From: Fidelibacterota bacterium
GTDB taxonomy: Bacteria; Fidelibacterota; Marinisomatia; Marinisomatales; TCS55
Length of the DNA stretch: 64,000 nt
Direction: 5' to 3'
Assembly (NCBI GenBank): GCA_029936965.1
Contig: JAPYRG010000007.1
Span: 1 to 64,000 of the forward strand
The notes beneath the pieces were generated by a model, which ran no database searches, was not told the DNA's origin, and saw only the letters and a program-made list of their open reading frames with translations. Of the stretch, positions 36,158 through 50,776 are shown piece by piece. Made by a program: the position numbers and the translations under genes. Position 1 is the stretch's first letter; each line of letters begins with the position of its first letter.

Positions 36158-39100
36158 ATGATTAATAAAAATATTATATTTTTTATTTCTTTATTTTTTG
36201 GAGTTCTCTCTGCTCAGCTATCGGTCTCACTAGGGAATGTTGAGTCTCCCGGGTATTCTTCAAATATAGAAGTACCAGTTATTATTAATAACCCTAATAA
36301 TACTGTTTCTGGAATGCAATTTGACTTAATGGTGGATCCAGATATTATATCACCTTTTAATGTTAACGCTTATGGTTCTTCTAATGGTTTTACTGCAGAT
36401 ATGAATCAACTTTCTGCAGGTGGATATAGATTTTTACTGTTTAATGCTGGAAATGCATCTTCTATTCCTTCCAATTCTGATACAGTTATGGTCATACATT
36501 TTAATGGATCATCAATTCCTTCTGCTGTAATTAATCTAGAAATGTCTGATTTAACTGTAACTGATAGTTCTGGTGCGGAATTATCAGCTACAAGTTCGAA
36601 TGGAATGATTTCAATTGGTAATGTTGTAGCATTAATGATGAATTCTGATAGCGGTGATGTATCAGAAGCTGTTCATATACAAGTAAGTATGGTTAATAAT
36701 GGAACTGTTGGTGGATTACAGTTTGATTTATTGGATGTACCAGATAATTTATCTATAGATAGTCTTTGGACAACAGATCGCACGGATAATTTTACAATTT
36801 CGAGTACGGATATTTCAGCTGGAGCAAGGATTTTAATGTATAGTACATCTAATAATAATGTTTCTCCAGGTGATGGCCCAGTCTTGAATGTTCGTTATCT
36901 TGTAAACTATAATGCATACGGAGGAGATGTTTTAATTACATTTGATGAAGTGACCGTTTCGGATAGTATTGGTGGTATATATTGGATTTCAGAATTAGAT
37001 ACAGGTCAAGTAAAAGTTTTTCCAGGTTATATGGAAGAGCCTCATAATTTAGTTGCAGTATCTGGCTTAGATGCGGAAGTGCCTTTGAGCTGGAATCCTC
37101 CATTAGGTCCAGTTCCACCTACGGTACCATTTACTATCGAGATTTTAACAGATGATTATCCAGTAGAGACCTCTTGGGATTTAGTCCACGTTGATGGCGA
37201 TAGTGTGGTAGCAAGTATTTTTGCAGGTGAATTAGTTGATACGGAAACGCTATATACTTGGGATTTAAATATTCCTTCAGGAGCGCACGTTTTTACGATA
37301 TATGATGAGTATGGAGATGGTATATGCTGTGGATATGGGGAAGGGTATTATCGCCTATTATTAAATGGCAATGAGATTGCAAGTGGCGGTGAATTTGAAG
37401 CGTCTGAAAGTGTTACATTTAATACTTCTGATGGAAGATTTAATATTATCCAATATAGCTATCTTAATCCACCAACTATCGAAAAAGATTTATTCACTAT
37501 TGATAATCATGAATTAGAATTATCATTGCCGTTTTTTGTGAGTTCAGGATTAATTGATTTGTCACATCAAGATAAAACAATTGATAATAATAATTTTCAA
37601 AGAAGGACCCCTGATGTATCCGGGTATATTTTATATCGCAGTTCTTCTGGCAATCCAGATTTTGAGCTTATTGCGAGTGTTGGTGCAGATGCAAATGAAT
37701 ATACAGATACGGATGTAATGAATGGCGTGACATATTATTATTATGTGACAACTGATTATTCTCCTGCAGGAACGGAGTCAGGCCCAAGCAATATTGCTGA
37801 TGGGACTCCTGTAGAATGGGTGGAATTATCCATTTCGGATGGAGCTGCTTTATCAGGGTATACTGATACTTTAGAAATATCGATCAATAATGAAGCTGAA
37901 ATAAGTTTTTTCTATATCGAAATAACTGATGATCCTGATTATATTATTGCGGAAACAGTTCTGCAAACAGATCGTACGCAGAATTATACATTAAGTGTAA
38001 CTGAAACGAATGGGGTGATGGTTGTTTCAGCATTCCCTAATGGGAGTAATGTTACATTGTCCTCTGGAAGTGACCCAGTATGTAGAGTGATTGTGCGAGG
38101 AGCCAGTATGGAACCAGCATATGTAGATCTTGATTTTACTTTTGCAAATATAGAAGATTATAATGGTGTTGAGATGAATTGGACAGGTGATGATGCGGAT
38201 TTTGAAGTTTCGGTTGAGACGCAAATTCTTGCGATGCCCAATTTGGTTGTAAGTCCCGGTGAAGGATTTGTTATGCCACTCATGATTAGTAATTCTCAAC
38301 CAGTTTCTGCAATCCAGCTTTCTTTATCTAGCCAACCAAATTATATAACAGGTGTAACAGTAGTTTCATCTGATTATATGGATTTTTCAGATTGGTATTT
38401 TGGAGGAAATCAAGATGGAAGTGATTATAATGTAATCATAACGGATTTGACATTAAATAATCCAATTATGCCAGGCATGGGACATATTGCCGATCTTTAT
38501 TTATATGTAGATGCAAATACACCTTCTGGTAGTTCATATCCTATAGAAGTTGATAAAATAGTAGCGGATGCAAATAGTATTGAAATGTTTACAGAGATGA
38601 TTCCTTCAAGTGTTTTTGTTGGTACGCCTATGGCACATTTTTCAATTGATACTAGTTTTTCTATGTCTGGATCTGCAACTAGAACCATTCCTGTTCATCT
38701 GGATAATATTGTACCAATTTCTGTTTTTGAAATGACTTTAATGGATATGCCTGATGGGCTAATCGTCACTTCAGTCAATGCTGTGGGGCGTTTTTCAGAT
38801 GTCGGTGGATTATTTTTAGATAATACTGGAGAAGATGAAGATGGTAATTGCTTTATTTTTGGCTATACTATTGGAACGGCTATTCCTTCAGGTTCTGGTC
38901 CAATATTTGAATTAACTGTCCAAAGAAAGAATTCTTTTGGAGGACAATTAGGGTTGTTTTTTGGAGATGTTTCAGCTAGAGACGAAAATACTAATGAGGT
39001 AACAGTTTGTGGAACAGGTTATGCTCTGTTGAGCGTTGCTTTAGAACTAACAGATACCTTTATTATTCCAAATCAGTATAAGCTATATCAAAATTATCCG

Positions 39101-39349
39101 AACCCATTTAACCCGTCAACAGTAATTCAGTATGATGTCCCAGAGCTATCACAAATTTCATTAACACTATATGACCTGTCTGGGCGTGAGGTTAATCAGT
39201 TAGTTAAAGAGACGCAACAGCCTGGTTTAAAAACTGTGGTATGGGATGGTAAAGATTTTATGGGTAATAGAATGGGTGCTGGCATTTATATATATCAATT
39301 AAAATCTGGCAATTATGTTGAATCCAAAAAGATGATATTTGTAAAGTAA
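36158..39349 (+). CDS. Large secreted cohesin-like protein with type IX-like C-terminal domain
   Basis: 1063 residues. A signal peptide (1-19) is followed by several cohesin-like beta-sandwich repeats (SGMQFDLMVDPDII; GGLQFDLLDVPDNL; and copies near 590, 715 and 860). A fibronectin-III-like segment near 295 is interrupted by a domain with YDEYGDGICCGYGEG, known from secreted marine FCB proteins. The last 85 residues form a T9SS/FlgD-like sorting domain (NYPNPFNPST; WDGKD; GAGIYIYQL; ending KKMIFVK). It is probably exported by a Por-type system and attached or released at the surface. Ligand unknown; no dockerin seen. Confidence 0.8.
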   Translation: MINKNIIFFISLFFGVLSAQLSVSLGNVESPGYSSNIEVPVIINNPNNTVSGMQFDLMVDPDIISPFNVNAYGSSNGFTADMNQLSAGGYRFLLFNAGNASSIPSNSDTVMVIHFNGSSIPSAVINLEMSDLTVTDSSGAELSATSSNGMISIGNVVALMMNSDSGDVSEAVHIQVSMVNNGTVGGLQFDLLDVPDNLSIDSLWTTDRTDNFTISSTDISAGARILMYSTSNNNVSPGDGPVLNVRYLVNYNAYGGDVLITFDEVTVSDSIGGIYWISELDTGQVKVFPGYMEEPHNLVAVSGLDAEVPLSWNPPLGPVPPTVPFTIEILTDDYPVETSWDLVHVDGDSVVASIFAGELVDTETLYTWDLNIPSGAHVFTIYDEYGDGICCGYGEGYYRLLLNGNEIASGGEFEASESVTFNTSDGRFNIIQYSYLNPPTIEKDLFTIDNHELELSLPFFVSSGLIDLSHQDKTIDNNNFQRRTPDVSGYILYRSSSGNPDFELIASVGADANEYTDTDVMNGVTYYYYVTTDYSPAGTESGPSNIADGTPVEWVELSISDGAALSGYTDTLEISINNEAEISFFYIEITDDPDYIIAETVLQTDRTQNYTLSVTETNGVMVVSAFPNGSNVTLSSGSDPVCRVIVRGASMEPAYVDLDFTFANIEDYNGVEMNWTGDDADFEVSVETQILAMPNLVVSPGEGFVMPLMISNSQPVSAIQLSLSSQPNYITGVTVVSSDYMDFSDWYFGGNQDGSDYNVIITDLTLNNPIMPGMGHIADLYLYVDANTPSGSSYPIEVDKIVADANSIEMFTEMIPSSVFVGTPMAHFSIDTSFSMSGSATRTIPVHLDNIVPISVFEMTLMDMPDGLIVTSVNAVGRFSDVGGLFLDNTGEDEDGNCFIFGYTIGTAIPSGSGPIFELTVQRKNSFGGQLGLFFGDVSARDENTNEVTVCGTGYALLSVALELTDTFIIPNQYKLYQNYPNPFNPSTVIQYDVPELSQISLTLYDLSGREVNQLVKETQQPGLKTVVWDGKDFMGNRMGAGIYIYQLKSGNYVESKKMIFVK

Positions 39350-39374: not shown

Positions 39375-39399
39375 AAGGCAGGTAAAACCTGCCTTTTTT
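39375..39399 (+). terminator. Rho-independent terminator
   Basis: AAGGCAGGT (39375-39383), a three-base loop and ACCTGCCTT (39387-39395), then a run of T. It ends the transcript of the large secreted protein, before the tRNA gene. Confidence 0.92.
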
Positions 39400-39456: not shown

Positions 39457-39540
39457 GCCGCGGTGGTGGAATTGGTAGACACGCCAGATTTAGGATCTGG
39501 TGCTCGTAAGGGTGTGAAGGTTCGAGTCCTTTCCGCGGCA
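39457..39540 (+). tRNA. tRNA-Leu (anticodon UAG)
   Basis: An 84-base class II tRNA. The acceptor stem GCCGCGG (39457-39463) pairs with CCGCGGC (39533-39539) and A at 39540 is the discriminator. The D-arm is TGGTGGAATTGGTAGACACG. The anticodon stem CCAGA/TCTGG encloses loop TTTAGGA with anticodon TAG at 39491-39493, reading CUA/CUN leucine codons. A long variable arm and a GGTTCGAGTCC T-arm follow. CCA is not encoded. Confidence 0.97.
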
Positions 39541-39592
39541 CGCTATTTTGAAAATTAAATTATATCAATAATAAAGTTTTATAGTTAAAAAA

Positions 39593-40429
39593 ATGCCCGA
39601 AGAAAAAAAATCAGTTTTTCAAGTAATCATTCATAGTTTTTTTGTCGTTCCATTTATTATTGCAATTTTTGGTGTATTAATATTCCTAATGGCCCGCGTG
39701 CTAACTTCAGAACCTAGAACTGCTCATGATTATTTAGAGGATGTAAAAATTGGGGGATCAACTAAGCGATGGCAAGGGGCATTCGAGCTATCAAAAATTT
39801 TAGCGAACCCAAATAGTATTCCAACTGATGATAGGTTTGTAAATGATTTAATATCTACTTATAAATATTCTGAGAATGAAAGAGATAATAGAATACAGAT
39901 TTATTTAGCCCTTGCGATGGGTAGAACAAGGGACGACAGATATTCAGATATTCTAGAAAGATCCTTAAGCAATGAAGATGAAGAAATTTTAAGTGCTGTA
40001 ATATTTTCTCTAGGCTTGATTGCTAATCAAAATAGTCTGGAAAAGCTATTGATATTATATAATCATTCTTCTGCTAGGGTTCGGCATCAATTAGTTGTAG
40101 CGCTTGGTAATTATAATAATAATCAATCTCATAAAATTTTATATGAATCATTAAATGATGTAGAACCAAATGTTAGATGGGATGCAGCAATATCTTTGGC
40201 AAAACAAAAAGATAATAAAGGACGAAGAATAATATTAGACCTTATGGATAGAAAATATTTAGATTCTTTTCCTAATATTGATCCAATGGAACAGATCCAA
40301 GCGATGATGATAGCAATTACTGTTAGTAAACAAATATTAGATAATGAAATAAAGGGAAGGTTAATAGAATTGATGGATAATGATATCAATATAAAGATTC
40401 GTCAAGCTGCGCGAAATGCATTACAATAA
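39593..40429 (+). CDS. Membrane-anchored HEAT-repeat protein
   Basis: 278 residues. One N-terminal membrane helix (about 12-35) is followed by alpha-helical HEAT-like repeats (DDRYSDILERSLSNEDEEIL; VRHQLVVALGNYNNNQSHKIL; NVRWDAAISLAKQKDNKGRR; NIKIRQAARNALQ). It lies 17 bases before the Rieske gene in the same orientation, so it may help assemble or stabilise the bc complex. That role is inferred from position. No cofactor motif is present. Confidence 0.75.
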   Translation: MPEEKKSVFQVIIHSFFVVPFIIAIFGVLIFLMARVLTSEPRTAHDYLEDVKIGGSTKRWQGAFELSKILANPNSIPTDDRFVNDLISTYKYSENERDNRIQIYLALAMGRTRDDRYSDILERSLSNEDEEILSAVIFSLGLIANQNSLEKLLILYNHSSARVRHQLVVALGNYNNNQSHKILYESLNDVEPNVRWDAAISLAKQKDNKGRRIILDLMDRKYLDSFPNIDPMEQIQAMMIAITVSKQILDNEIKGRLIELMDNDINIKIRQAARNALQ

Positions 40430-40446
40430 TATATAGGATATATAAT

Positions 40447-41016
40447 ATGCCAGATGGTAAAAGTACAGTATCGAAACCTCCAGTACCTAAGTCACCTGCG
40501 GCTCTTGGTAAAACGACAAAAGATAGTGAAGATATAAATAGAAGATCTTTCTTTTCTTGGCTATCATTTGGTTGGATTGGATTTGTAGCTGCTACAGGTG
40601 GATTCTTTACTATGATGTTAAGATTCTTTTTCCCGAACGTTCTTTTTGAGCCAGTCCAAACATTTCTGGCCGGGTATCCAGATGATTATATTATTGGTGA
40701 GGTAGACACGAAATGGAAGGATAAATATGGGGTTTGGATTATTCGAAACGATCAAGGCATATATGCATTATCTACTGTATGCACTCACCTTGGATGTACG
40801 CCAAATTGGTTAGCATCCGCAAAAAAATTCAAATGCCCTTGTCATGGAAGTGGTTTTAAATCGACAGGAATAAATTTTGAAGGTCCTGCACCAAGGCCGC
40901 TTGAAAGATATCGTATTGTGTTAGCGGATGATGGTCAAATTATTGTTGATAAAACAAAAAAATTCCAGCAAGAAAAAGGGCAGTGGGAAGATCCAGAAGC
41001 ATTATTAAAAGTATAA
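40447..41016 (+). CDS. Rieske iron-sulfur protein of the bc complex
   Basis: 189 residues: a membrane helix (about 38-60) and a C-terminal Rieske domain. CTHLGC (112-117) and CPCHGSGF (130-137) supply the [2Fe-2S] ligands Cys112, His114, Cys130 and His133, with Cys117-Cys132 as the usual disulfide. It receives one electron from quinol at the Qo site. The N-terminus is proline-rich, without a Tat twin-arginine motif of the classical form (RRSFFSW is the nearest). Confidence 0.94.
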   Translation: MPDGKSTVSKPPVPKSPAALGKTTKDSEDINRRSFFSWLSFGWIGFVAATGGFFTMMLRFFFPNVLFEPVQTFLAGYPDDYIIGEVDTKWKDKYGVWIIRNDQGIYALSTVCTHLGCTPNWLASAKKFKCPCHGSGFKSTGINFEGPAPRPLERYRIVLADDGQIIVDKTKKFQQEKGQWEDPEALLKV

Positions 41017-41032: not shown

Positions 41033-41827
41033 ATGTCAGAAGAAAAACAGAAATCATTATTAGAAAAAGCAGCAGAATCTCAGATTTGGAAATCGATTTT
41101 CCGAGGTGGTGGTGTCCCTAGGAATAGACGTCAACGAATGATGTCAGTATTGAATTCAGTATTTCTGCATCTCCATCCTGTTCGTTTACCTAAGCATGCA
41201 GTTAAATTGAAATTTACCTGGTGTATGGGAGGATTATCATTTTTCATATTTCTTATTCTTACAATTTCTGGTATTCTATTGATGTTTTATTATCGTCCAA
41301 CAATAGAATACGCATATACGGATATCATTGATCTGGCTGAACAAGTTCCCTTTGGAATAATGCGAGAACTACATCGATGGGGTGCTCATGCAATGGTAAT
41401 CACAGTTTGGTTACATATGTTTAGAGTATTTATGACTGGATCCTATAAACCCCCTAGAGAATTCAATTGGGCTGTTGGCGTGATATTACTATTATTGACT
41501 TTATTATTGAGCTTTACAGGTTATCTATTGCCTTGGGATCAATTAGCAATCTGGGCTATAACTGTGGGATCAAATATGGCTCGAGCTACTCCATTTCTAG
41601 GCTCAGAAGGGCCAGGAGCTTCGCTACTTGCAATCGGTGATATTAACTTTATTACCATGGGAAGTGATGCAAGATTTGCTTTGATTGGAGGCCGTTTTAT
41701 GGGAGAAGCAGCTTTATTACGGTTTTATGTTTTACACTGTATAGGACTACCATTTATTATTATGATTTTTATGGCTGTTCATTTTTGGAGAGTGAGAAAG
41801 GACGGCGGTATTTCCACGCCAGTATAA
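41033..41827 (+). CDS. Cytochrome b, N-terminal (b6-like) subunit
   Basis: 264 residues, four membrane helices. Helix B carries the heme ligands in [15 protein letters not shown] (13 residues between the outer His pair). Helix D carries [16 protein letters not shown] with 14 residues between, the spacing of cytochrome b6 rather than mitochondrial cytochrome b. The subunit is separate from its C-terminal half, as in b6f-type complexes. A basic N-terminal extension (about 1-55) is cytoplasmic. Confidence 0.93.
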
Positions 41828-41829
41828 TT

Positions 41830-42948
41830 ATGGGATCCTTTAAAGAAATAGTAAATACAATATCTAATCCAACAATATTATTCACTTCTGTTGTAATTAT
41901 ATTTCCTTTTGTATTCCCGCCATCAGACTGGTTCGAAAAATGGCACCGGAAATTGGGATTGCACCATTTATGGAGTAAGAAGGCAATTATAATAGCTATG
42001 ATTGGTATGATTGCTTTTTTTATTTATGGATTAGGCGATTATAACTTTCAGAAAATTGTCTTAAAGCCTGATAATGTTCCTATATCAGGATTAATTTTTC
42101 TTGTCGTTTTTTTTACTTGGTTATCTATGTATCAGGCTTATAAGAATGATGAGCGGTTAGAAGCCGGTCAGAAGCCTGATGAATTTTATGAAGCTCCAAA
42201 CGACAAAGTTTTAGTCTGGCCAGATTTAGTGTATGTTGAACTTATTTCATTAATTATAATGTCGGCTTTCTTATTAGTATGGTCCATTGGGCTTCCCGCA
42301 CCAATTGAAGAACCTGCTAATCCAACAGAATCTCCAAACCCTGCAAAAGCACCTTGGTATTTTTTAGGACTTCAGGAGATGTTAGTGTATTTCGATCCAT
42401 GGATGGCTGGCGTGGTCTTACCTAGCCTGATAATTGTTGGTTTGATGGCAATGCCCTTTATAGATCGAAATCCTGAGAATTCAGGATTCTATAGTTTTAA
42501 GCGTCGGCGACTTGCTATTTCATTATTTATGTTTGGTTGGCTTGTTTTGTGGGTAATGTTAATTATTGTTGGGACTGTATTAAGAGGGCCGAACTGGAAT
42601 TTTTTTGGTCCATTTGAATATTGGGATATACATAAGTTGGAGGCGCTAACCAATATAAATCTATCAGAGATAGTTTACATTAAATGGTTAAATACAGGAT
42701 TACCTGAAAGCATCCTAATACGCGAAATTTGGGGAATATTAATTATTATGGGCTATTTTCTTATTCTCCCACCGTTATTAGCTAAAACGGCACTTAAGGA
42801 TATGTATGGAAGGTTAGGGGTAGTGCGCTATTCAGTTTTTATTGTATTAATAATAACCGCTCTTACTTTACCAATTAAGATGTATCTGCGTTGGATTATT
42901 AATTTGAAATATATTATTTCAATTCCTGAATATTTTTTCAACTTTTGA
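41830..42948 (+). CDS. Cytochrome b, C-terminal (subunit IV-like) subunit
   Basis: 372 residues from the ATG three bases after the b6 stop. The Qo motif, PEWY in most ubiquinol enzymes, reads A174-P175-W176-Y177 (KAPWYFLGLQE), lacking the Glu. Such low-potential variants are linked to menaquinol. It is larger than plant subunit IV (160): extra helices lie before (about 17-100) and after the Qo segment. It forms the quinol-binding half of the complex. Confidence 0.9.
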   Translation: MGSFKEIVNTISNPTILFTSVVIIFPFVFPPSDWFEKWHRKLGLHHLWSKKAIIIAMIGMIAFFIYGLGDYNFQKIVLKPDNVPISGLIFLVVFFTWLSMYQAYKNDERLEAGQKPDEFYEAPNDKVLVWPDLVYVELISLIIMSAFLLVWSIGLPAPIEEPANPTESPNPAKAPWYFLGLQEMLVYFDPWMAGVVLPSLIIVGLMAMPFIDRNPENSGFYSFKRRRLAISLFMFGWLVLWVMLIIVGTVLRGPNWNFFGPFEYWDIHKLEALTNINLSEIVYIKWLNTGLPESILIREIWGILIIMGYFLILPPLLAKTALKDMYGRLGVVRYSVFIVLIITALTLPIKMYLRWIINLKYIISIPEYFFNF

Positions 42949-42959
42949 TTATTTAACAT

Positions 42960-45900
42960 ATGTCAGAAAGTCAGGAAAGACACTATAATATTCTAAAGTT
43001 GAATCGGTTATTTGCGATTTCAACCTTCATTTTTACAGCAGTTTGGCTATTGGTGTTTGTTGATGATTATCAACGTCCTTGGAAAACATACCAGAAAGAA
43101 TTTAGAAAATTGGAAATTGAGAAGGTTAGGTCTGATCTCAATGATCTATCAGTACAATTAGAAAATAATCCAGATTATAATAGGCTTACAGAAAAATTAT
43201 TGTCTGCTGAAAAAAGATTAGATAGCCGTAGAGATGAATTAGATAAAATTAATGTTGAATTAGAGACATTGAACACAGAACTATATAGAAATAACCAGCT
43301 GTATCAATTTTCAAAAGCAGATTTAGATGTTCTTAAATATGATTATGAAAAAAGTCAATTTGGTCATGATAAAAGTTCAGATTTGAAAAAAAAATATTTT
43401 GCTCTTAATGATATTGTAAATAAATATTTTTTGATTAGAGAGAAATCGGAAATAAGAATTGATAAAAAGAAAAAAGTACAACAAGAAATAACAAAAGTAA
43501 TTGGTCGTATGAAAGGTTCACTAATATCAATGACTCGTGAAAAGAATTTGGTGGAACGAAAATTATCTAAAGTAGATCCTGAAGCAATGTCATTTGCAAA
43601 TAAGGTTGGTAATGTGGTTAGGGATTTACCTGTTCTTGATTTCATTGACCCATATTATGAGGTAAAGCAGGTAGTAATTAATGATTTAGAAGAAGATCTT
43701 GTTTATATGGGTATGCCAAAAGTAGATCGTTGTGTGACTTGCCATCTAGGAATAGATAAGAAAGGCTTCGAAGATGTGCCGCAACCATATACTACTCATC
43801 CCAAGCTTGATTTAATGGTAGGGCCAAGTTCATCTCATCCAATAAGTGAATTTGGATGTACATCATGCCATGCAGGTCGTGGTAGAGGAACTGGATTTAA
43901 TTCGTCTTCTCATAGTCCCAATGATGAAACGACAGCCCATAGATGGGAAGAAGAACACGGTTGGGAGCCTATGCATCATTGGGAAAATCCTATGTTTCCA
44001 AAGAGATATACAGAAGCAGGTTGTTTTAAATGTCATAGTGGTAATATGCCGCTAAAAGAGGCAGAAACTTTAAGTCTTGGTTTATCAGTTTTTGAAAAAT
44101 CCGGTTGTTATGCTTGTCATAATGTTACACGTTGGAATGATGCGCCTAAACCGGGCCCTAGTCTTTATAAATTAGCATCAAAAACAAGTAAAGATTGGAC
44201 ATATAAATGGATTATGGACCCCAGTTCATTTCGTCATAACACCTGGATGCCTCACTTCTTTAAGAAAGGAAATAATAGTTCTCCTGATGATATTAAAAAA
44301 ACCGAACAAGAAGTACTGGCTATGACTGAATACTTGTTTAGTAAATCAGAATCCTATGAAATAACTAGTGTTAATAATTCAGGAGACTATGATCGTGGCC
44401 GACTTCTTGTGAACTCATTAGGATGTAAAGGTTGCCACCAGATTCAACCTAATCCTGATCCTGATTATGATCCAACAATTCAAGCTTTACGTACTGAGCA
44501 AGGGCCAAACCTGATTAGTTTGGGATCTAAGGTTAATGAAGATTGGTTAGTAAGCTGGTTAAAGAATCCTTATAGTTATCATGAAGAAACCAAAATGCCG
44601 GATTTGCGAGTATCTGATCAGGAGGCAATGGATATAGCAACATATTTATTGGCGGATAAAAATAATGCTTTTGATAGTATGAATACTGCTCAAGTAAATG
44701 ATGACGCATTAAATGAAATCTCTGCTGATTTCCTTTCTCAATTATTGAGAAAATCACAAGTGAATGAGAAAATATCTAATATGACTACCAAAGAGAAATT
44801 GATTTATTCTGGTGAAAAGCTTATTGGTTATTATGGATGCTATTCTTGTCACAATATTGCAGGTTTTGAAGATCGAAAACCAATTGGAATTGCATTAAAT
44901 ATCGAAGGAAGTAAATTGATTTCAAAGTTTGATTTTGGTTTTTGGCATGATGAAATACCACATACAAAGTGGGATTGGCTTTATAATAAAATTAATAAGC
45001 CGGAAATATTTGATCTTATTCCTAACGAAGAAGGATCAGTTACTGTAAAGGAATTAAATCCTCTTGAAAAGTCTCGTATGCCACATTTTGGTTTAACAGA
45101 TAAGGAAATAAATGGCTTGGTAACATTAATTATGGGTCTTGTTAAAGATGAGATACCTGCATCTAAGCTTCCAGAAAAGACCCCAGAATATTTAGCTGAA
45201 ACTCACGGTGAAAGGTTTGTCCATACCAATAATTGTCTTGGTTGTCATAAAATAGATGAAGATGGTGGGGCTATTTGGGCTTCAACAGCTGTTTGGCTCG
45301 AAGAGATAGCAGGACCAGAAAATTCTGAAGATATAAGTCTTGTTCAGAGTTTCAGTCCTCCACTTTTAAATACTCAAGGTAAAAAAGTACAACCAGATTG
45401 GTTGTTAAATTGGTTTCAAAATATATCTATGATACGACCTCATTTGCAGGTGCGAATGCCTAGTTACGATTTTACCCATGAAGAATGGAACAGTGTAATA
45501 TCATATTTTCAATCGAAAGATGGCTTGTCATTGAAATATGAAAATCCCCATAATTTTTCAAAAGCTACGAATTCATATAAGGCAGGAGAGAAGATTCAGG
45601 AAGAAGGAGCTTGTATAAACTGTCATTTTTATGGAGAAATGAAACCACGTCAGGATGCTCTTACTTGGGCTCCAAATCTAGTTCTAACAAAAAAAAGACT
45701 TCGACCAGAATGGTTAATCGATTGGTTTAATAACCCTCAGACTGTTATGCCAGGTACTAAAATGCCTTCTCCTTATATACCAGTTGATGAACCAGTTTCT
45801 GATGTGAAAGAATATTGGGGCAATGAAGTTGCATCATTTGTTGGGGATACTACCGGCATGCTATACGGTCTTATTGATTGGATGTGGGGTTTAGAAGGAA

Positions 45901-45986
45901 AAGAAGATATTTCATCTATAGTAAAGGAACATCTTGATAATGAAGGATATGGATTTATTTCGGATGATGAAGATGATGAATGGTAA
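42960..45986 (+). CDS. Octaheme cytochrome c of the bc complex
   Basis: 1008 residues. A membrane helix (about 16-34) anchors a long charged coiled coil (about 45-220) outside the membrane. Eight CxxCH heme sites follow, starting at Cys258, 300, 355, 383, 489, 627, 759 and 885. Several His and Met residues that could be sixth ligands are near (HPKLDLMV, MPHF, KMPDL, KMPSP). The repeated pattern GPNL-W-W-NP-KMP resembles small monoheme cytochrome c domains joined in series. It presumably replaces cytochrome c1 and wires the Rieske protein to the oxidase. The acidic tail ends DDEDDEW, like CoxII encoded downstream. Confidence 0.88.
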   Translation: MSESQERHYNILKLNRLFAISTFIFTAVWLLVFVDDYQRPWKTYQKEFRKLEIEKVRSDLNDLSVQLENNPDYNRLTEKLLSAEKRLDSRRDELDKINVELETLNTELYRNNQLYQFSKADLDVLKYDYEKSQFGHDKSSDLKKKYFALNDIVNKYFLIREKSEIRIDKKKKVQQEITKVIGRMKGSLISMTREKNLVERKLSKVDPEAMSFANKVGNVVRDLPVLDFIDPYYEVKQVVINDLEEDLVYMGMPKVDRCVTCHLGIDKKGFEDVPQPYTTHPKLDLMVGPSSSHPISEFGCTSCHAGRGRGTGFNSSSHSPNDETTAHRWEEEHGWEPMHHWENPMFPKRYTEAGCFKCHSGNMPLKEAETLSLGLSVFEKSGCYACHNVTRWNDAPKPGPSLYKLASKTSKDWTYKWIMDPSSFRHNTWMPHFFKKGNNSSPDDIKKTEQEVLAMTEYLFSKSESYEITSVNNSGDYDRGRLLVNSLGCKGCHQIQPNPDPDYDPTIQALRTEQGPNLISLGSKVNEDWLVSWLKNPYSYHEETKMPDLRVSDQEAMDIATYLLADKNNAFDSMNTAQVNDDALNEISADFLSQLLRKSQVNEKISNMTTKEKLIYSGEKLIGYYGCYSCHNIAGFEDRKPIGIALNIEGSKLISKFDFGFWHDEIPHTKWDWLYNKINKPEIFDLIPNEEGSVTVKELNPLEKSRMPHFGLTDKEINGLVTLIMGLVKDEIPASKLPEKTPEYLAETHGERFVHTNNCLGCHKIDEDGGAIWASTAVWLEEIAGPENSEDISLVQSFSPPLLNTQGKKVQPDWLLNWFQNISMIRPHLQVRMPSYDFTHEEWNSVISYFQSKDGLSLKYENPHNFSKATNSYKAGEKIQEEGACINCHFYGEMKPRQDALTWAPNLVLTKKRLRPEWLIDWFNNPQTVMPGTKMPSPYIPVDEPVSDVKEYWGNEVASFVGDTTGMLYGLIDWMWGLEGKEDISSIVKEHLDNEGYGFISDDEDDEW

Positions 45987-46132: not shown

Positions 46133-46843
46133 ATGAAAATTAAACTTATAGGAACGTTAATTGTTTTTGTTTTGGTAAACTTTGGTTATTCTGGCGATGT
46201 TGAAGGAAAAATTACATTTGATGGGAAAGCACCAAAAATGAAGCCCTTAAGAATGGATGCAGATCCAGTATGTGTTGCTAATAGTGATATTAAACCAAGA
46301 AAAGAATGGTTAGTGCTTGATGAAAATTACGGTGTAAAAAATGTATTGGTTTTTATAAAGGAAAGTAAATCTGGATCATTTGCAGACAATTATGATTCTC
46401 CGAAAGAAGTAGCAATTCTCGATCAAAATGGATGTGTTTATGTTCCTCATGTTTTGGGTGTAATGGTAGGGCAGCAGCTTGATATATTAAATAGCGATGG
46501 TACTTTGCATAATATCCATGCATTGCCTAAGGTAAACAAAGAATTTAATAAAGCTATGCCTAGATCAAAAAAACAAATGTCTGTAACATTTGATAAAGTA
46601 GAAGCTCCATTTAAAGTTAAATGTGATGTTCATCCTTGGATGGGAGCATTTGTAGGTGTTTTTGAGCATCCTTATTTTGCAGTTACTGATGATAGTGGAT
46701 CTTACACTATTTCTGGTTTGGCTCCCGGGAAATATGTTGTTGAAGCGTGGCATGAAAAGCTTGGATCTAAAACAGCTGATTTAACTGTTGATGATAGTGG
46801 AGCTACGCAAAACTTCACTTTCACTAAACCAAAAAAGAAGTAA
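46133..46843 (+). CDS. Periplasmic cupredoxin with a carboxypeptidase-regulatory-like tail
   Basis: 236 residues. Signal peptide 1-19. The cupredoxin domain has type-1 copper ligands: His126 or His129 in TLHNIH, and Cys164, His167 and Met170 in KCDVHPWM. The last 55 residues (VTDDSGSYTISGLAPGKYVVEAWHEKLG) form a transthyretin/CarboxypepD-like beta-sandwich. GGAGGAG ten bases before the ATG is a strong ribosome binding site, so the protein is probably abundant. It lies between the octaheme cytochrome and oxidase subunit I, so a role as electron shuttle to the CuA site is likely but inferred. Confidence 0.85.
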   Translation: MKIKLIGTLIVFVLVNFGYSGDVEGKITFDGKAPKMKPLRMDADPVCVANSDIKPRKEWLVLDENYGVKNVLVFIKESKSGSFADNYDSPKEVAILDQNGCVYVPHVLGVMVGQQLDILNSDGTLHNIHALPKVNKEFNKAMPRSKKQMSVTFDKVEAPFKVKCDVHPWMGAFVGVFEHPYFAVTDDSGSYTISGLAPGKYVVEAWHEKLGSKTADLTVDDSGATQNFTFTKPKKK

Positions 46844-46856
46844 TTTAAGGAATTAA

Positions 46857-48575
46857 ATGAACGCACATTCTCACCGCGAAGAATCTTTTTTCCGAAAATA
46901 CATATGGTCTACAGATCATAAAATTATCGGTTTACAATATGGTTTAACCGCACTGCTTTTTCTATCCGTTGGATTCTTTTTAATGATGGTAATGCGTTGG
47001 CAGTTGGCTTATCCTGAAACACCTATTCCTTTTGTAGGATCGTTTTTTGGCGAAGATGGTATTTTGCTTCCAGAAATCTATAATTCGTTGGGAGCAATGC
47101 ATGGGACGATTATGATATTCCTTGGTGTTGTTCCTTTAGCGGTTGGTGCATTTGGTAATTACTTAGTTCCATTACAAATTGGTGCTCCTGACATGGCCTT
47201 TCCTAAACTTAATGCTGCCAGTTATTGGAGTTATTTTATTGGTGGAGTTATTATGATGGGTAGTTTTTTCTCTGAGGAAGGAGCTGCTAGATCAGGTTGG
47301 ACATCGTACCCTCCTTTGGCAGATATTGAGGTGGGACAAACTATCTGGCTTATTGGAATGGTATTTTTGATCACATCTAGCTTATTAGGATCTATGAATA
47401 TTATTACTACAATAGTCCAATTACGTGCCCCTGGGTTAACATGGAGAAGATTACCTTTCTTTGTCTGGACACAACTAGTCACATCTTTTCTTTTAGTATT
47501 AGCATTTCCTCCATTGGAAGCGGCTGCAGTACTTCAACTTATGGACAGAGTGGCTGGTACGAGTTTCTTTTTACCTAGTGGTTTAGTTATATCAGGAGAG
47601 GCTTTAGCTGTTAGTGGAGGAGGAAGCCCTTTACTTTGGCAACATTTATTTTGGTTTTTGGCCCACCCTGAAGTGTATGTATTAATTTTGCCAGCTATGG
47701 GTATTGTATCGGAGGTTATTGCTAATAATACAAGAAAACCATTGTGGGGTTATAATTCATTAGTTTTCTCTGTAATATTTCTTGGCTTTATGTCTTTTGT
47801 AGTATGGGCACATCATATGTTTTTAACTGGAATGGGCACTGCTATGAGCTCTTTTTTCCAGATTACTACCATGATAATTTCTATCCCTTCAGTTATAATT
47901 TTATCAGCATTGTTTATCTCTCTTTGGGGCGCCTCGATTCGATTTAATACTCCTATGTTATTTGCATTAGCATTTTTACCAATGTTTGGTATAGGAGGTT
48001 TAACAGGATTGCCATTAGGTATTGCGGCATCGGATATATATCTTCATGATACATACTATGTTATTGGGCATTTTCATTATGTGGTTGCACCTGGTACTAT
48101 CTTTGCTCTTTTTGCAGGTATTTATTATTGGTATCCAAAAATTACGGGTAGGAGGATGAATGAACGTCTTGGTCAATTACATTTTTGGCCATCACTTTTA
48201 TTTATGAATGGAGTTTTTATGCCTATGTTTATTCAAGGATTGGCCGGTGTATCGCGTCGACTTTGGGATGGTGGTTTGGAATATGCTCATGCTGCTGGAG
48301 TGTTGCAATGGAATGAATTTATGTCTATATCTGCTTGGTTGCTTGGAATATCACAAATTCCTTTTATTATTAATATTTTTTTTAGCCTTAAACGAGGGGA
48401 AAAAGTAGATCGCAATCCATGGGAGGCTACCACTTTAGAGTGGGTTGCTCCTTCACCTCCTTTACCACATATAAACTTTGAAACTCTTCCTGAAGTTCAT
48501 AGGGAAGCATATGAATATAGTGTTCCTGGACGTAATAGAGACTTCACTCCGCAAACCGAGCCTAAAAAAGGGTAA
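46857..48575 (+). CDS. ctaD: Cytochrome c oxidase subunit I (aa3 type)
   Basis: 572 residues, twelve or more helices. The heme-copper centre is shown by AHPEVYVLILPAMG (CuB His, cross-linked Tyr and the proton-gating Glu of A1-type enzymes), the adjacent CuB ligands WAHHMFLTGM, and GHFHYVVAPG for heme a and a3. The D-channel entry IGAPDMAFPKLN is intact. It reduces oxygen to water and pumps protons. It starts 13 bases after the cupredoxin gene. Confidence 0.97.
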   Translation: MNAHSHREESFFRKYIWSTDHKIIGLQYGLTALLFLSVGFFLMMVMRWQLAYPETPIPFVGSFFGEDGILLPEIYNSLGAMHGTIMIFLGVVPLAVGAFGNYLVPLQIGAPDMAFPKLNAASYWSYFIGGVIMMGSFFSEEGAARSGWTSYPPLADIEVGQTIWLIGMVFLITSSLLGSMNIITTIVQLRAPGLTWRRLPFFVWTQLVTSFLLVLAFPPLEAAAVLQLMDRVAGTSFFLPSGLVISGEALAVSGGGSPLLWQHLFWFLAHPEVYVLILPAMGIVSEVIANNTRKPLWGYNSLVFSVIFLGFMSFVVWAHHMFLTGMGTAMSSFFQITTMIISIPSVIILSALFISLWGASIRFNTPMLFALAFLPMFGIGGLTGLPLGIAASDIYLHDTYYVIGHFHYVVAPGTIFALFAGIYYWYPKITGRRMNERLGQLHFWPSLLFMNGVFMPMFIQGLAGVSRRLWDGGLEYAHAAGVLQWNEFMSISAWLLGISQIPFIINIFFSLKRGEKVDRNPWEATTLEWVAPSPPLPHINFETLPEVHREAYEYSVPGRNRDFTPQTEPKKG

Positions 48576-48580
48576 GAATT

Positions 48581-49177
48581 ATGGAAATTCCTTATATAGT
48601 TGATGAAAGACCTGATACCGGGATATATAATGCTAAATTAGGTATTTGGTTATTCTTAGCATCTGAAGTTATGTTATTTGGTGGTTTGTTTTCTTCGTAT
48701 GTTTTTTTACGATTAGGTGCTCCTGTTGGAGCATTTCATGAATGGGGACAGGAATTAAATATTCCACTAGCAACTCTGAATACATTGATATTGATTTCTT
48801 CTAGTATGACAATGGTAATGTCATGGGTTTCATTAAAGATGAACGATTTTAAAAAGTTTAAATTATACATGGCTCTTACTTTGCTTTGTGCTTTATGTTT
48901 TTTAGTAATAAAATATTTAGAATATAGTGCAAAGATTCACCATCATATCTATCCAAGTACGAATACATTCTATGCAATATATTTTACTCTTACAGGTCTT
49001 CATGGTCTTCATATAATCGGTGGAATGGTCGTTCTTTTTTATCTTTGGGTTCCAGGTAGTAATATGTGGAAAATAAAACCCGAACAATTTACAAATAGAA
49101 TAGAAATAGTAGGTCTATACTGGCACTTTGTTGACTTAGTATGGATATTTCTTTTTCCAATTTTATACTTGCTTTAG
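48581..49177 (+). CDS. ctaE: Cytochrome c oxidase subunit III
   Basis: 198 residues, five membrane helices, the short bacterial form. LGIWLFLASEVMLFGGLFSSY, LTGLHGLHIIGG and YWHFVDLVWIFLFPILY are conserved subunit III motifs; the Glu in SEVM is the one near the D-channel. It follows subunit I by five bases. Confidence 0.95.
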   Translation: MEIPYIVDERPDTGIYNAKLGIWLFLASEVMLFGGLFSSYVFLRLGAPVGAFHEWGQELNIPLATLNTLILISSSMTMVMSWVSLKMNDFKKFKLYMALTLLCALCFLVIKYLEYSAKIHHHIYPSTNTFYAIYFTLTGLHGLHIIGGMVVLFYLWVPGSNMWKIKPEQFTNRIEIVGLYWHFVDLVWIFLFPILYLL

Positions 49178-49933: not shown

Positions 49934-50776
49934 ATGATTGATATTCTACGAGACCTTGGATTACCAATAAGTATATCATCAAATGGTCCAGTGATTGATG
50001 AAACAATCGCTCTAATGCACTGGCTTATGTTATTCTTATTTATTGGTTGGGGAACATTCTTCATTGTTTCTTTGGTAAAATTTAGAAAATCAAAAAGTCC
50101 GCAAGCAGATTATATAGGTGTTAAGTCTCATATATCTACAGTTTTCGAAGTTGCTGTTGCCCTAATAGAAATTGTTTTACTAATTGGTTTTTCATTTCCA
50201 ATCTGGGCAAGTAGGGTAAATGATGTTCCAACCTCTAATGAAGGTATCATTCATGTTCGAGTTGTTGCTCAACAATATGTCTGGAATATTCATTATCCAG
50301 GACCAGATGGAATTTTTGGAAGTACACAATCTGAACTTGTAGATGAAGTTAGTAATCCTGTAGGATTAGATCGATCTAGCTTTGGTGCTTCCGATGATTT
50401 TATTACAATCAATCAATTACATATTCCTGTGAACAAAAAAGTTCGGATAGATTTAAGTACTAAAGATGTGATACATAGTTTTAAACTTCCAGAATTAAGA
50501 GTTGGTCAAGATGCTATACCAGGAATGAGCATACCATTGCATTTTGAAGCTACAATGACATCTAATCAGTTCTTGAAAAAGATGGTTGGTACACCAAGAG
50601 AAGGTAAAGGGTTAGAAATATCCTGCGCACAGTTATGCGGACTTGGCCATTATCGGATGAGAGGATACTTAACAGTTGATACTGAAGAAGAATATAATGA
50701 TTGGTTAAGTCTGCAGGCTGAATATTTGCTAGAAGATAATGAAGAAGATGAATGGGGTGACGAGGAAGACTGGTAA
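49934..50776 (+). CDS. ctaC: Cytochrome c oxidase subunit II (CuA)
   Basis: 280 residues. Two membrane helices (about 25-48 and 70-92) and a cupredoxin domain whose CuA ligands are Cys231, Cys235, His239 and Met242 (CAQLCGLGHYRM), with a His upstream in DVIHSFKLP. There is no fused heme c domain, so an external donor is needed, such as the cupredoxin or octaheme cytochrome encoded upstream. The C-terminus is very acidic (EDNEEDEWGDEEDW), probably to dock a basic partner. Subunit order I-III-IV-II is not the common one. Confidence 0.95.
   Translation: MIDILRDLGLPISISSNGPVIDETIALMHWLMLFLFIGWGTFFIVSLVKFRKSKSPQADYIGVKSHISTVFEVAVALIEIVLLIGFSFPIWASRVNDVPTSNEGIIHVRVVAQQYVWNIHYPGPDGIFGSTQSELVDEVSNPVGLDRSSFGASDDFITINQLHIPVNKKVRIDLSTKDVIHSFKLPELRVGQDAIPGMSIPLHFEATMTSNQFLKKMVGTPREGKGLEISCAQLCGLGHYRMRGYLTVDTEEEYNDWLSLQAEYLLEDNEEDEWGDEEDW

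Follow-up and report, generated by a model that had tools for sequence, protein, structure and literature searches.

Octaheme c-type cytochromes have already been described as partners of Rieske/cytochrome b complexes. In Nitrospina gracilis, an atypical octaheme cytochrome c is the only c subunit by a b6f-like operon that also encodes an iron-sulfur subunit and a split cytochrome b (PMC3578206, 2013), and this operon structure is shared by Kuenenia and Methylomirabilis oxyfera (PMC3578206). For Kuenenia stuttgartiensis, PDB entry 9rk3 is listed as Kustd1480 (PMC12954380). A paper on Marinimicrobia speaks simply of a "cytochrome bc1 complex" (PMC5688066). The preliminary description of the DNA discussed here contrasted an eight-heme protein with the one-heme cytochrome c1 as if the arrangement were new, but octaheme c subunits have been on record since at least 2013 (PMC3578206; PMC12954380). 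The stretch analyzed, 64,000 nucleotides long and hereafter called the window, very probably encodes such a protein: the octaheme c subunit of a b6f-like Rieske/b complex, homologous to Kustd1485 and replacing cytochrome f or c1, which would brace the complex with a helical hairpin and pass electrons out through a cupredoxin or to the CuA site of an oxidase.

The operon begins downstream of a terminator-like stem-loop (39375-39395, + strand) located 3′ of the preceding gene, and this stem-loop and a tRNA-Leu gene separate the two. The tRNA-Leu gene (39457-39541) lies just upstream of the operon and downstream of the stem-loop. Positions 36158-39349 encode a large protein that looks secreted, carrying cohesin domains and, at its C-terminus, a type IX-like sorting signal. 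The first gene of the operon (39593-40429, +) encodes a membrane-anchored HEAT-repeat protein of 278 aa (HEAT_2, 1.8e-14; hydrophobic segment 16-34), which possibly serves in assembly or as an additional subunit. A HEAT gene also comes first in the operon of nearly all Neomarinimicrobiota and Omnitrophota loci having upstream sequence, and a weaker HEAT match is found upstream in some planctomycete loci.

The genes that follow encode the core of the complex. The Rieske iron-sulfur protein (40447-41016, +; 189 aa; Pfam Rieske, 4.4e-10) carries the motifs CTHLGC and CPCHGS and has 9rk3 as its best PDB match (1.6e-45), so that Kustd1480 is its nearest relative among solved structures. The cytochrome b6-like subunit (41033-41827, +; 264 aa; Cytochrome_B, 2e-41) aligns with Kustd1481 and has, within FTWCMGG, the cysteine expected for covalent heme cN; the role of this residue in heme attachment is that known from b6f. 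The subunit IV-like protein (41830-42948, +; 372 aa from ATG) shows hydrophobic segments and matches Cytochrom_B_C (3e-8) and, below cut-off, an ExtQ-like model (1.2e-16); its start is most likely the ATG at 41830 rather than the TTG at 41785 of the open reading frame listing. Successive gaps between the HEAT, Rieske, b6, subunit IV and octaheme genes are 17, 16, 2 and 11 nt, and the families are confirmed by Pfam and NCBIfam. The octaheme gene is thus directly 3′ of the Rieske, b6 and subunit IV genes, in the same run, as had been proposed from the first reading of the sequence.

The window operon has the traits of the b6f type, namely the Rieske 2Fe-2S ligand motifs, the split between b6 and subunit IV and the heme cN cysteine, and searches of it with Pfam and NCBIfam gave no match to the cytochrome f or c1 families. 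Because an octaheme protein is present and cytochrome f/c1 is not, the locus is classified as an octaheme-type Rieske/b complex rather than as a canonical b6f or bc1. The preliminary description had proposed a c1 replacement in a bc complex; the conserved traits of the protein and its linkage to the b genes uphold its assignment as the c-type subunit of a Rieske/b complex, whereas the split b6 and subunit IV make that complex b6f-like and not bc1.

The octaheme gene (42960-45986, +) starts with ATG and encodes a 1008-aa homologue of Kustd1485. Its eight CxxCH sites (residues 258, 300, 355, 383, 489, 627, 759 and 885) account for 16 of the 16 cysteines of the protein, while shuffled versions of it (n = 5000) contain at most one CxxCH each, with a mean of 0.007. 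Among the open reading frames of at least 90 aa in all frames of the 64 kb window, no other bears a CxxCH. The protein has a single hydrophobic segment (residues 17-35), covered by an AF2 helix at 11-37, and hydrophobicity and AF2 together place the membrane anchor helix at about residues 17-37 (43008-43070, +). The membrane anchor, coiled coil and eight CxxCH sites noted earlier are all seen in this reading frame, as one helix, a helical stretch of about 170 residues and eight sites. PDB searches with the sequence returned just partial matches, to class-I cytochrome c and FixO-like proteins, and a PDB fold search with the AF2 model returned coiled-coil matches only, none with E < 0.001.

Two kinds of heme site can be distinguished. 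Hemes 4-8, from residue 383 to 885 (44106-45767, +), belong to serial class-I cytochrome c domains recognized by Pfam Cytochrom_C/CBB3; the family alignment has invariant methionines at 430, 546, 707, 833 and 935, which come after these hemes in class-I fashion. The sites of hemes 1-3 (residues 258, 300 and 355; 43731-44039, +) lie in a region with Cytochrome_C7/c3-like Pfam matches near cut-off and with low confidence in the AF2 models (pLDDT < 50). They are accompanied in the alignment by invariant histidines at 280, 293 and 318, which are candidate ligands, and hemes 1-3 are probably bis-His. In 58/58 sequences, hemes 1 and 2 are spaced by 42 aa and hemes 3 and 4 by 28 aa. The simplest reading, with axial ligands deduced from conservation, is a protein with five His/Met and three bis-His hemes.

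An octaheme protein attached to a b complex could in principle be catalytic, reducing nitrite or a sulfur compound for instance, since the HAO, ONR and OTR enzymes are octaheme proteins and a separate HAO-like octaheme occurs in another Kuenenia complex (PMC12954380). Such a function appears highly improbable for the window protein: Pfam and NCBIfam match it to families of the class-I cytochrome c, FixO-like and c7-like kinds and not to HAO, ONR or OTR, the invariant methionines offer a candidate sixth ligand for five of the hemes and leave no obvious open heme among these five, and the octaheme gene co-occurs with oxidase genes. The octaheme protein of Phycisphaerae (PMC11266412) was considered as a possible instance of the same protein; it is HAO/ONR-like and thus different. 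The preferred reading is that of an electron-transferring c subunit.

The distribution of this protein was examined in a scan of 84,980 species genomes, which gave 459 candidate stretches containing a relative of the query. The best 80 of the 459, which were kept, come from Neomarinimicrobiota, Omnitrophota and Planctomycetota, judging by record titles; wherever the contig reaches far enough, the order HEAT-Rieske-b6-subunit IV-octaheme is nearly constant in these 80, and aa3-type oxidase genes come next in many of them. A match is present in 52/61 related genomes. With the family model, matches were obtained in 115/245 of the Neomarinimicrobiota genomes searched and, at E 1e-10 or better, in 223/392 Planctomycetota genomes, the weaker matches in both sets including other multiheme cytochromes. 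In the best 20 of the 223 planctomycete matches, the same eight-heme layout is found by subunit IV, with the protein of L155 split into two reading frames. All eight sites are kept in 41 aligned homologues, where L016 and L018 seem to lack sites only because of ambiguous bases, and eight hemes are present in 106/108 family reading frames longer than 600 aa and without N, the exceptions being L092, which is cut by the contig end, and the split L155. The preliminary description had called for a survey of heme count and coiled-coil length, and both prove conserved; it had also regarded homologues without most heme sites, or expression apart from the bc genes, as damaging to its case. The homologues keep all eight hemes, and where the flank suffices no octaheme gene was found away from the b genes. 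In the phylogeny, the Neomarinimicrobiota and Omnitrophota proteins fall among the diverse planctomycete ones; as nodes near the root are weakly supported (0.685), no direction of transfer is claimed. A divergent branch of the family comprises two planctomycete octahemes of 1255-1277 aa (L165:1539-5306 and L166:7733-11566), in which hemes 1-4 are spaced differently (at about 255, 412, 523 and 600) and the Rieske gene comes after the octaheme gene.

Between the anchor and the first heme, residues 37-216 are 39% charged, contain 3% proline plus glycine against 13% elsewhere across the family, and show a hydrophobic periodicity of 3.48 residues (p = 0.017 against shuffles). In a first AF2 model, the anchor (11-37) is followed by helices at 40-133 that are interrupted by short breaks; the chain then turns at 134-138 and continues as a helix at 139-205, with pLDDT mostly 80-90. 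A second AF2 model, built from a planctomycete query, agrees with the first in placing the turn at 135-139, although the two share many alignment rows and are not fully independent. A model-free test points the same way: across 57 homologues, insertions in the helical stretch are confined to positions 134 and 139, a restriction that an antiparallel hairpin explains. L089 lacks 33 residues from one arm alone, for which the hairpin offers no explanation; this gap is possibly an assembly error. The region thus most likely forms an antiparallel hairpin whose second arm leads back to its base (residues 40-205; 43077-43574, +), made of outgoing helices 40-133, a turn 134-138 and a returning helix 139-205, as placed by the two models and the insertion sites.

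The preliminary description had suggested that a rigid coiled coil plus serial heme domains could bridge the complex to the oxidase or the outer membrane as a built-in wire. A rod that lifts the heme domains off the membrane toward the outer membrane or a distant partner would suit a helical region that is long, highly charged, nearly free of gaps and conserved in length, but it is quite improbable, as the chain breaks at 134-139 in both AF2 models and comes back as a second long helix, and this turn is the sole insertion site of the region. Moreover, in the AF3 model of Kustd1485 of Kuenenia, long helices wrap around the complex (PMC12954380), and the operon shows no gene for an outer-membrane cytochrome or porin. 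The modeled hairpin is more likely to serve as a brace of the complex or of the Rieske head. In two Neomarinimicrobiota genomes, a second Rieske/b operon (L045:515-6879 and L046:4013-9766) encodes a relative with eight hemes, 655-659 aa long and lacking the coiled coil, beside an NAD(P) oxidoreductase and the Rieske, b6 and subunit IV proteins; as such relatives exist, the octaheme design can do without the hairpin.

The genes downstream bear on how electrons would leave the heme chain. After a gap of 146 nt, the octaheme gene is followed by a gene for a 236-aa cupredoxin-like protein (46133-46843, +) with the type-1 copper motif CDVHPWM and a weak amicyanin-like match, and the Cx2HPxM motif is kept in 61/61 related reading frames of the loci. 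This protein also has a carboxypeptidase-regulatory-like domain, and in many relatives it is encoded on the other strand, with its gene placed between those for octaheme and oxidase. Next come the genes for cytochrome c oxidase subunit I (46857-48575, +), the sole full COX1 of the genome, subunit III (48581-49177, +) and subunit II (49934-50776, +), which has the CuA motif CAQLCGLGHYRM and lacks a fused cytochrome c. A link between octaheme and oxidase is plausible. Oxidase genes adjoin the octaheme gene in many, though not all, homologues; given this variation and the 146-nt gap, co-expression of octaheme and oxidase is only a possibility.

In the proposed mechanism, quinol would be oxidized at the b6/Rieske site, and one electron would pass from the Rieske protein to a membrane-near heme of the octaheme subunit and then along the heme chain, with the antiparallel helical hairpin bracing the complex or the Rieske head. 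From the heme chain, the electron would exit to the adjoining cupredoxin or straight to the CuA of the aa3-type oxidase. Outside the octaheme protein, class-I cytochrome c matches in the genome fall in two diheme proteins, one resembling ethylbenzene dehydrogenase and the other of 356 aa, and in a PQQ-type dehydrogenase. Two Pfam models detected no small soluble class-I cytochrome c in this genome; as it is 96.65% complete, such a protein could lie in the absent part or escape the models. The cupredoxin-like protein is the leading candidate to carry electrons from octaheme to CuA, and direct transfer is possible.

An alternative is a built-in wire, in which the octaheme protein would feed the CuA directly within a supercomplex of b complex and oxidase and with no mobile carrier. 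The position of the oxidase genes after the octaheme in many loci, a subunit II with CuA and no fused cytochrome c, and a genome in which no small soluble class-I cytochrome c was detected all agree with it. Nevertheless, such a wire appears rather unlikely, because in most oxidase-bearing loci the genes for octaheme and oxidase are separated by one for a cupredoxin, an obvious mobile carrier whose copper motif is perfectly preserved, and because in Kuenenia the operon with the same octaheme type includes an NAD(P) oxidoreductase, and no oxidase adjoins it. Exit through either the cupredoxin or the CuA is retained as the preferred reading. A broader proposal can be put forward tentatively, at somewhat less than even chances: that Neomarinimicrobiota use a quinol-to-oxygen chain without any soluble cytochrome c, in which the heme chain reaches the CuA directly or via one cupredoxin while the hairpin clamps the Rieske head. 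If true, abundant marine bacteria would harbor an aerobic branch of the octaheme Rieske/b family that has so far gone undescribed.

The genome contains one cytochrome b (by the Cytochrome_B family), one full COX1, and CcmF- and CcmC-like maturation genes. The NrfD family has no match in it, indicating that there is no alternative complex III, and the octaheme complex appears to be its only complex III. In that case, the electron flow from quinol to oxygen in a marine lineage would run through it. These findings suggest that the octaheme Rieske/b complex of anammox and nitrite-oxidizing bacteria is a widespread respiratory module, extending to marine Neomarinimicrobiota and planctomycetes. The octaheme arrangement is already known, real and well conserved, and the window is a member of it in a different phylum and with different neighbors.

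The closest counterpart is the Kustd1480-1485 complex. The L158 locus encodes a Rieske protein, a b6, an NAD(P) oxidoreductase, a subunit IV and a 948-aa octaheme c; as its Rieske protein is identical to 9rk3 over 117/117 residues and its gene content matches Kustd1480-1485, its octaheme is taken as Kustd1485. The Pfam family PF18582 (hydrazine synthase) was tried as a marker of anammox genomes and rejected, since the 76 genomes matched were too many for it to be specific. Comparison of the window octaheme family with the L158 octaheme gives an hhalign probability of 100 (E 6e-117) over 833 columns, near full length and with the coiled coil included. Kustd1480-1485 and the window share closely related Rieske proteins, a b6-like b, a subunit IV-like protein and an octaheme c in which an anchor, long helices and the heme order agree, with the first heme at residue 236 in Kuenenia and 258 in the window, and a subunit IV of 277 aa against 372 aa. 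The Kuenenia operon has an NAD(P) oxidoreductase with Fe-S clusters and no HEAT gene shown, whereas the window has the HEAT gene, the cupredoxin and the aa3-type oxidase. The NAD(P) oxidoreductase is present in L158-L162 and absent from the window operon; as none was found in the inspected aerobic planctomycete loci either, it is regarded as a feature that varies within the wider kind. The window b6 also keeps FLHLHP and WRxRKDGG, with the His and Arg/Lys residues on which a central heme b was proposed for Kustd1481; since they are kept where no NAD(P) oxidoreductase is encoded, this extra heme site, if it exists, is not restricted to NAD(P)H production. The second operons of L045 and L046 have a monoheme cytochrome c after the octaheme and resemble the NAD(P)H-linked complexes of Kuenenia, and the second-operon b6 of L045 lacks the heme cN cysteine.

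The octahemes of Nitrospina and Methylomirabilis are likened to that of the window by their published description (PMC3578206). In the Ext genes of Geobacter (ExtO, ExtP, ExtQ, ExtS), ExtP and ExtQ provide the best NCBIfam models for the window b6 and subunit IV, below curated cut-offs, but ExtS is a tetraheme lipoprotein, there is no octaheme coiled-coil protein, and the cluster contains a porin and other multiheme cytochromes (PMC5877670). The canonical b6f and bc1 complexes also have a Rieske protein and a cytochrome b, and b6f also has a separate subunit IV and the heme cN cysteine; their cytochrome f or c1 carries one heme, whereas in the window this position is filled by a protein from another family with eight hemes.
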